Source: Cherax quadricarinatus (Eukaryota; Arthropoda; Malacostraca; Decapoda; Parastacidae). Taken from it: a stretch of DNA of 64,000 nt. Positions within the stretch are counted from its first letter, which is position 1. Every line of letters starts with the position of its first letter. Of this stretch, positions 52,043-52,906 are shown piece by piece. The stretch spans positions 6,599,535 to 6,663,534 of the forward strand of contig NC_091341.1 of assembly GCF_038502225.1 (NCBI RefSeq), given 5' to 3'. The position numbers were made by a program, and so were the translations under genes. The notes below the pieces were generated by a model. The model was not told the DNA's origin and did no database searches. It saw only the letters and a list, made by a program, of their open reading frames with translations.

Positions 52043-52079
52043 TGTTAGGTAAGACACATATGCAACAGTTAGACATCTT

Positions 52080-52126
52080 TATTCCGAAACGTTTCGCCTA
52101 CACAGTAGGCTTCTTCAGTCGAATAC
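52080..52126 (-). ncRNA. hammerhead-like ribozyme core (left arm)
   Basis: Inverted copy of the core at 52355-52401, identical over the core and stems. Confidence 0.55.
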
Positions 52127-52354
52127 AGAAAGTAGGCAGGAGCAGTAGAGATGTGAAGACGATGTAATCAGTCCATCACCCTTAAAGTCGTAGAATTTGA
52201 GGTTGTCAGTCCCTCGGCCTGGAGAAGTTCAGTTCCATAGTCAGGAACTGAACTTCTCCAGGCCGAGGGACTGACAACCTCAAATTCTACGACTTTAAGG
52301 GTGATGGACTGATTACATCGTCTTCACATCTCTACTGCTCCTGCCTACTTTCTG

Positions 52355-52401
52355 TATTCGACTGAAGAAGCCTACTGTGTAGGCGAAACGTTTCGGAATA
52401 A
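52355..52401 (+). ncRNA. hammerhead-like ribozyme core, CUGAAGA type
   Basis: UAUUCGA (52355-52361), CUGAAGA (52362-52368; fits CUGANGA), A, GCCUAC-UGU-GUAGGC stem II (52370-52384), GAAAC (52385-52389), GUU, with predicted cleavage after 52392, then UCGGAAUA. UAUUC/GAAUA and GA/UC pair as stem I with one bulged G. The sole departure from a textbook core is the unpaired A before stem II. ACGU makes stem III self-complementary, implying a dimeric form. Confidence 0.58.
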
Positions 52402-52471
52402 AGATGTCTAACTGTTGCATATGTGTCTTACCTAACAACCTGTCGGTATTGTATACCATTTTGATGTTCAT

Positions 52472-52678
52472 CTTGTCAGACACTGCAACACGTGGCATCT
52501 TGGTACAGAAAACACCTTGGACAAGCTTTTCAAGTGAGAAGGGTTGGATCTGAGAGGGACATGACCTCTCAGTTGCCTCTCACTACTACTACTACTACTA
52601 CTACTACCCTGCACCTCTCCTTCCGACAGTATTTAAGCCTCCACACTGTCGCTTGATCTTCAGATAGTTCCTGACTAT
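52472..52678 (+). other. spacer between direct hammerhead-bearing repeats
   Basis: Contains (CTA)n near 52585-52606 and a TATTTAAG TATA-like word near 52631. With direct repeats on either side it resembles the internal start or leader of an element from which coding sequence has been lost. Confidence 0.4.
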
Positions 52679-52906
52679 GGAACTGAACTTCTCCAGGCCG
52701 AGGGACTGACAACCTCAAATTCTACGACTTTAAGGGTGATGGACTGATTACATCGTCTTCACATCTCTACTGCTCCTGCCTACTTTCTGTATTCGACTGA
52801 AGAAGCCTACTGTGTAGGCGAAACGTTTCGGAATAAAGATGTCTAACTGTTGCATATGTGTCTTACCTAACAACCTGTCGGTATTGTATACCATTTTGAT
52901 GTTCAT
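52679..52906 (+). mobile_element. third hammerhead-bearing terminus, direct repeat of 52244-52471
   Basis: A 228-bp copy offset by 435 bp from the first, apparently identical through CCATTTTGATGTTCAT, where (TA)n begins. Confidence 0.9.
52790..52836 (+). ncRNA. hammerhead-like ribozyme core (third copy)
   Basis: Same core as 52355-52401; CUGAAGA at 52797-52803 and GAAAC at 52820-52824. Confidence 0.57.

Follow-up and report, generated by a model that had tools for sequence, protein, structure and literature searches.

The window, by which we mean the whole 64-kb stretch of DNA that was analysed, carries at 52043-52906 linked copies of a short repeat whose cores resemble those of hammerhead ribozymes. 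The locus raises the question of whether these cores are hammerheads, what kind of element carries them and what they do there. We consider it likely that the repeats are the pseudo-LTR ends of Penelope-like retroelements, each with a minimal type I hammerhead, and that their twin insertions arise by unequal starts.

Hammerhead-like cores and their arrangement

The copies located in the window are listed below; the family letters A to E are labels introduced in this analysis.

52080-52124, minus strand: family A copy 1, in the inverted arm; core 52118-52088, predicted cut between 52088 and 52087
52356-52400, plus strand: family A copy 2; core 52362-52392, predicted cut after 52392
52791-52835, plus strand: family A copy 3; core 52797-52827, predicted cut after 52827
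29381-29423, plus strand: family B copy; core 29387-29415, predicted cut after 29415
21521-21563, minus strand: family D copy with the U3/A8 core UUGAUAA, additional to the copies of the sequence-only reading
21885-21927, plus strand: family D copy with the U3/A8 core UUGAUAA, likewise additional
48830-48874, plus strand: decayed family C copy (21.1 bits, E 0.043)
48757-48801: doubtful copy (17.2 bits, E 0.33)

The two scores come from one covariance model, and because this model was built from genomic variants that include the window copies, they are not independent evidence. The family A and B copies share one layout, in which stem I is followed by CUGANGA, one extra A, a short-looped stem II and GAAA, and the 3' part has ACGU overlapping the core, then H17 and the second stem I strand. 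In copy 2, 52357-52361 pairs with 52393-52397 to form stem I, the CUGANGA part occupies 52362-52368, the extra A is 52369, stem II is formed by 52370-52375 and 52379-52384, and GAAA lies at 52385-52388. The three family A cores are identical (CTGAAGA, the extra A, GCCTAC/GTAGGC, GAAAC and GTT), and the family B core at 29387-29415 has CTGATGA, the extra A and GCCAC/GTGGC, with GGA/UCC as stem I. It should be noted that the three family A copies are not independent of each other, because they have identical arms and form a 435-bp tandem repeat of one insertion.

Abundance of the core and the extra A

In the window's own genome (3.95 Gb), the C3-G8 form of the core, searched for with the pattern CTGANGAAGN{4,10}TGTGN{4,10}CGAAACG, gave 25,450 + 26,070 = 51,520 matches and the U3-A8 form gave 39,435, and the reversed-pattern controls of both forms gave no match in the same genome. 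It is thereby confirmed that the core occurs far more often than by chance. The three linked cores and the sister copy at 29379-29425, which had been reported from the letters of the window, were all found again where that reading had placed them.

We also scanned 146,861 bases (the window and the fetched loci) with a pattern that was free at positions 3 and 8 and required TGA, A, a 4-bp stem II and GAAA; because most of these stretches were picked by motif, the density of matches in them is not a genome average. The scan gave 97 matches with one inserted base, none with no inserted base and one with two, and on the reversed sequence one match each for no, one and two inserted bases. GAAA was followed by C in 88 of the 97 matches. 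Positions 3 and 8 were CG in 75, UA in 15, GC in 4, and GG, UC and UG in one match each, and the four GC matches are a different repeat with an inserted G.

When one inserted base was asked for, this base was A in all 88 matches. A genome-wide search with the no-insert pattern gave 204 matches, which on reading by eye are scattered deletions and were rejected as a separate class. Cores in this genome as a rule have the extra A in front of stem II. In this respect the copies depart from the usual type I hammerhead, whose stem II is joined to the core without an inserted base, a trait that is not strictly defining. The CChMVd(+) hammerhead has a full stem III and an unaltered C3-G8 pair. As the sequence-only reading remarked, an unpaired A at this place is unusual for hammerheads; a precedent is the active CChMVd(+) hammerhead, different in its viroid context, which has the extra A (A10) between A9 and G10.1 at the cost of a moderate loss of rate (PMC3705267, in its available part).

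A looser pattern gave at least 119 stretches in prokaryote contigs and 29 in viral contigs, and among the 148 matches listed 12 had four or more stem II pairs with G-T counted. Apart from two full hammerheads in L168 and L174, the listed matches look like chance, and prokaryote and viral relatives were rejected on these grounds. L168 (IMG/VR contig IMGVR_UViG_3300027686_000119) contains two complete type I hammerheads at 6181-6241 and 6937-6995, 756 nt apart. Each has a full stem III, with a different sequence in the two, and stem II is again preceded by the extra A; both hammerheads are also present in L174.

Fold and active site

The type I core C3U4G5A6N7G8A9 ... G12A13A14 ... A15.1-U16.1, H17 was found in families A and B, and families C, D and E have U3-A8 in place of C3-G8. 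Position 17 is U, A or C in all 123 fetched copies and never G. For covariation we aligned 31 distinct variants from the 88 scan matches, with decayed rows kept. Paired cells amounted to 91.9% compared with 73.8% in shuffles, two-sided change was seen in 9 of 11 pairs, and the covariation score of 0.412 stood against 0.136 for shuffles and no more than 0.134 for slid versions. Four of the five measures lay above all 500 shuffles and the fifth, further pair types, showed no excess (14 compared with 13.9), whereby the shuffles ignore relatedness and the 31 variants stem from few families. Pair 3-8 was CG in 19 of the variants, UA in 10 and something else in 2.

The sequence-only reading had seen covariation-like support in the sister copy and had proposed an alignment of genomic copies as a check; the compensatory changes in stems I and II and in C3-G8 across the 31 variants bear this out. 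A hammerhead fold is thus supported by covariation among variants, by the paired U3-A8 change and by position 17. The same covariation of C3-G8 to U3-A8 is known from natural hammerheads that are active in vitro (Perreault et al. 2011; PMC3088659, in its available part), which gives several examples, whereas here there are 39,435 matches that also have the extra A and a minimal stem III.

Most copies come from few families, within which identity says nothing on selection, and one covariation measure stays at the level of the shuffles, so one might regard the motif as inert and frequent only by hitch-hiking in an abundant repeat. We find this most improbable, as the families differ by paired changes in stems I, II and pair 3-8. 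Moreover, the mixed 3-8 forms number 5,148 genome-wide (C.A 3,282, U.G 1,866; by eye mostly one-step decays among the 100 listed of each), as against 39,435 for U-A and at least 51,520 for C-G, the last count being from a pattern related but not identical to the 3-8 pair patterns.

A search with the Rfam hammerhead models, which had also been proposed as a check, went against the sequence-only reading: no window core was matched at gathering score, and no hammerhead was found at E up to 10 on 52000-53000 and 29300-29500. An Rfam match is a diagnostic trait and not the definition of a type I hammerhead, and at gathering score Rfam also misses both full type I copies of L168, which have the extra A. 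With regard to energy folding, stems I and II are present in the minimum-energy monomers of the 52356 and 21885 copies, and the 29381 monomer has additional pairs within the core. The minimum-energy dimers of the same three copies are not double hammerheads, other duplexes being preferred. Within one copy stem III is only the self-complementary ACGU, and efficient cutting is therefore expected only when two copies pair.

The host element

Hammerheads in the pseudo-LTRs of Penelope elements are already established (PMC7761336, in its available part; PMC11167929). The minimal type I hammerheads described there (Cervera and de la Pena 2014; Lunse et al. 2017) are like the present ones in their type I layout, their place in pseudo-LTRs, a near-absent stem III that is thought to make them dimer-acting, and their linkage to RT and GIY-YIG frames. 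Compared with their description in PMC11167929 and the available part of PMC7761336, the copies in this genome differ in that the extra A between A9 and G10.1 is the rule and that the U3-A8 core occurs in large families. They are a very abundant set of Penelope hammerheads with an unusual core, the association of hammerhead and Penelope itself being known.

Searching the genome with PF01541 yielded 14,992 first-look candidates; 150 of them were scored, and all 150 exceeded the cut-off. Among the best 30 of the 150 scored GIY-YIG loci, mostly of one element family, 25 had a hammerhead downstream. Of these 25 motif-bearing loci, 24 had a family C motif (UUGAAAA or UUGAGAA), which lay 489-525 nt beyond the GIY-YIG start; in several of them the basal pair of stem II was G.U, and two had a stem II mismatch. 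In L219 the GIY-YIG start is followed at 899 nt by a family B motif that may be part of another element, and a downstream hammerhead was looked for and not found in L207-L211. In L226, RVT_1 (1.5e-10) and GIY-YIG (2.4e-8) are joined in one 608-aa open frame, a Penelope trait, and a family C motif follows 489 nt after the GIY-YIG start. The motif also follows the GIY-YIG frame in L200 (family C, at 185 nt) and L007 (family E, at 286 nt), and in L011 no motif was found downstream of the frame within the locus.

Family A has tandem units of 429-435 bp, with 8 spacings of exactly 429 in the sample, and no linked coding frame was seen for it. This suggests that family A is non-autonomous; in the sample, whose loci were mostly picked by motif from the start of one contig, it looks like a 429-435-bp tandem derivative.

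Two further observations concern coding frames. The TCAGACACTGCA stretch after the tail, at 52476-52487 of the window and in related loci, gives ..LSDTA.. in one frame in several families, and the Penelope coding frame probably begins here. In several cases (for example C4480:13767-17258 and C91:8173975-8177462) a minus-strand and a plus-strand GIY-YIG frame of equal score lie near each other, as if twin insertions duplicate long coding copies too.

Twin insertions with unequal ends

Head-to-head insertions in the window have the following parts.

52043-52906, inverted and direct arm: twin insertion of Penelope type, seen from its repeats and arm ends, with (AT)n on both sides
52043-52236: its inverted arm, short end, without tail
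52231-52906: its direct arm, 435-bp tandem period, long end with tail
52445-52457, plus strand: tail hairpin GGTATTGTATACC, next copy at 52880-52892
21484-21991: second twin insertion, family D, with arm ends 46 and 73 nt beyond the motif and the shared 12-bp flank word CAAACGCTAAAC

At 52043-52906 the arms end 44 and about 78 nt past the motif, and no duplication is visible because the (AT)n flanks hide any. A search for shared words of at least 10 bases at both outer ends of inverted pairs gave 34 candidates. In 19 of the 34, among them 21484-21991, the distance from the motif to the arm end was 35-47 nt in one arm and 72-79 nt in the other, these short and long ranges having been set after seeing the data. 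The remaining 15 candidates fell outside both ranges, some of their words visibly being element or simple-repeat words, and two like ends were found in none of the 34. The 19 classed pairs have four core types (CUGAAGA 13, UUGAUAA 4, CUGAUGA 1, UUGAAAA 1). A BLAST count on an overlapping set gave short and long ends in 23 of 25 rows, several rows being the same event.

The flank words shared in the classed pairs measure 10-16 bp, element letters possibly included, and correspond to the short target duplication of Penelope elements. A second Penelope trait is found as well, namely pseudo-LTRs that often come with a further copy in inverted head-to-head orientation, one of them bearing a tail of 30-40 bp (as defined in PMC11167929 and the available part of PMC3846280). 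The hairpin between the two arm ends varies in pairs among families (GGTAT/ATACC, GGTTT/AAACC and GGTTC/GAACC, the last two in family B copies); it was recognised in 57 of 123 copies, the rest being truncated or changed. That the repeats are Penelope pseudo-LTR ends, as the sequence-only reading had supposed, is thus supported by RT/GIY-YIG frames with the motif downstream in related families, and by the inverted arms, the tail and the shared flank words.

Across the final 130 aligned columns, 8 of 20 pairs had identical arms, and in most of the other pairs the two arms were close to each other. The arms of a pair therefore come from the same kind of template, and an origin from two unrelated templates was rejected on account of this closeness. 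By analogy with the anole element PAc, we infer that the arm ends are reverse-transcription starts, and further that there is one start per strand. The element RNA would run from the hammerhead through AAUAAA (3-6 nt past the cut), a GUGUCU-rich stretch and arm end 1 to the hairpin, arm end 2 and the probable start of the coding frame. At insertion, reverse transcription would be primed at site 1 by one target strand and at site 2 by its partner. The two cDNAs would meet head to head and give an inverted pair in which one end is short and the other is long and carries the tail.

This scheme may be compared with PAc, the Poseidon element of Anolis carolinensis (PMC11167929), in which the hammerhead also lies upstream of two observed reverse-transcription starts, the stretch between them being the tail, the targets are also AT-rich, and both target strands are cut and extended. 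The PAc start sites do not differ between top and bottom strand, which counts against one start per strand, whereas here the two arms of every classed pair have different ends. The coding frame of PAc begins at stem II of its hammerhead, whereas here the frame probably starts after the tail. One short and one tailed end per insertion is thus a prediction on insertion chemistry that departs from the PAc report (PMC11167929) and can be tested in a purified system of the PAc type.

It could also be that one cDNA primes itself and folds back, instead of both target strands acting as primers. Fold-back has been proposed for rotifer Penelope from palindromic joints (PMC3846280, in its available part), and the identical or close arms would agree with it. 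From a folded-back copy we would expect both arms to end at one site; in the 19 classed pairs the two end sites are 26-38 nt apart, PAc extends both target strands (PMC11167929), and we regard fold-back as unlikely. The rotifer Penelope Pen2a_Av similarly has inverted pseudo-LTRs, with a 31-bp tail on one and a 9-bp target duplication. According to the available part of PMC3846280 it is a single-copy example, whereas here 19 classed pairs, spread over four core types, each combine a short with a long end; the tail description given there is sharpened by these unequal twin ends.

Predicted cleavage and possible roles of the hammerhead

The polyadenylation-like hexamers next to window copies are as follows.

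52397-52402, plus strand: AATAAA, 4 nt past the predicted cut, next copy at 52832-52837
29421-29426, plus strand: AATAAA of the family B copy

In 117 of the 123 fetched copies AATAAA begins 3-6 nt beyond the predicted cut; the GTGTCT-rich stretch comes next, and the hexamer looks like a polyadenylation signal set against the ribozyme. Self-cleavage is predicted after position 17. With ACGU as stem III, such a minimal hammerhead would cut efficiently only as a dimer, formed by tandem units or by two transcripts and possibly aided by the protein of the element.

The in vivo activity and role of the Penelope hammerhead are called a mystery in the available part of PMC7761336. We looked for a cleavage footprint at the 5' ends of the elements and rejected it: there were 34 breaks exactly at the predicted cut and 51 breaks 12 nt further on, in a comparison of one subfamily with one comparison site, the second pattern covering more subfamilies. 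Some of the 34 exact breaks look like TCGA microhomology or hairpin loss. In PAc, insertion still took place with cleavage mutants, cleavage depended on protein, and RNA ends at the cut were not seen (PMC11167929). These 5' ends and the cleavage-free insertion of PAc count against a template-defining role of cleavage. The roles that remain would be the cutting of tandem transcripts into units, or a choice between cleaved and polyadenylated RNA through the adjacent AAUAAA.

The same two results would be expected if the fold were kept as a structure by which the Penelope reverse transcriptase binds or recognises its template, with cutting incidental or lost; that in the 19 classed pairs the arms end 35-79 nt after the fold would also suit such a role. 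The conservation has a catalytic logic, however, with the CUGANGA/GAAA core and a position 17 that is never G in 123 copies. Pair 3-8 is not known to form outside the catalytic hammerhead fold. Considering also the paired U3-A8 change at this core base pair (PMC3088659, in its available part), a structure kept for protein binding seems improbable to us.

Alternatively, family A might be a retrozyme, that is, small tandem noncoding units spread via circular RNA made by the hammerhead. Its short tandem noncoding units with a hammerhead are a trait of animal retrozymes, and their 429-435 bp are near the 170-400 nt RNAs and 150-450 bp repeats given in the available part of PMC7229834, which also describes amphibian retrozymes with a very weak helix III that work better as dimers. 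We nevertheless hold this to be quite unlikely, given that the insertions end at two tail positions and not at the ribozyme cut, and that the minimal ACGU stem III is of the Penelope type.

Keeping to a catalytic hammerhead of Penelope pseudo-LTRs, a very unlikely, speculative extension is that the dimeric hammerhead serves twin insertion as a docking and timing device: two paired transcripts or tandem units would be held together by the ACGU stem III, a dimeric RT would use one start on each for the two target strands, and the cut 3-6 nt before AAUAAA would select between polyadenylated message and template. If true, it would account jointly for the short and long ends, the spacing of hammerhead and AAUAAA, and a ribozyme that acts only as a dimer. 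Because the copies number tens of thousands, fall into several families and include a paired change at the active site, the constraint on the ribozyme is measurable in this genome.

Further observations in the window

Three other features were seen. An interstitial tandem array of AACCT type (telomere-like) lies at 21050-21157 and would be in keeping with an arthropod. The long open frames at 15745-18684 and 36269-39111 resemble LINE endonuclease/reverse transcriptase, as judged by eye. A 70-nt inverted repeat at 52953-53095, with 3 nt between the arms and AT repeats on its flanks, is a separate fold-back element.
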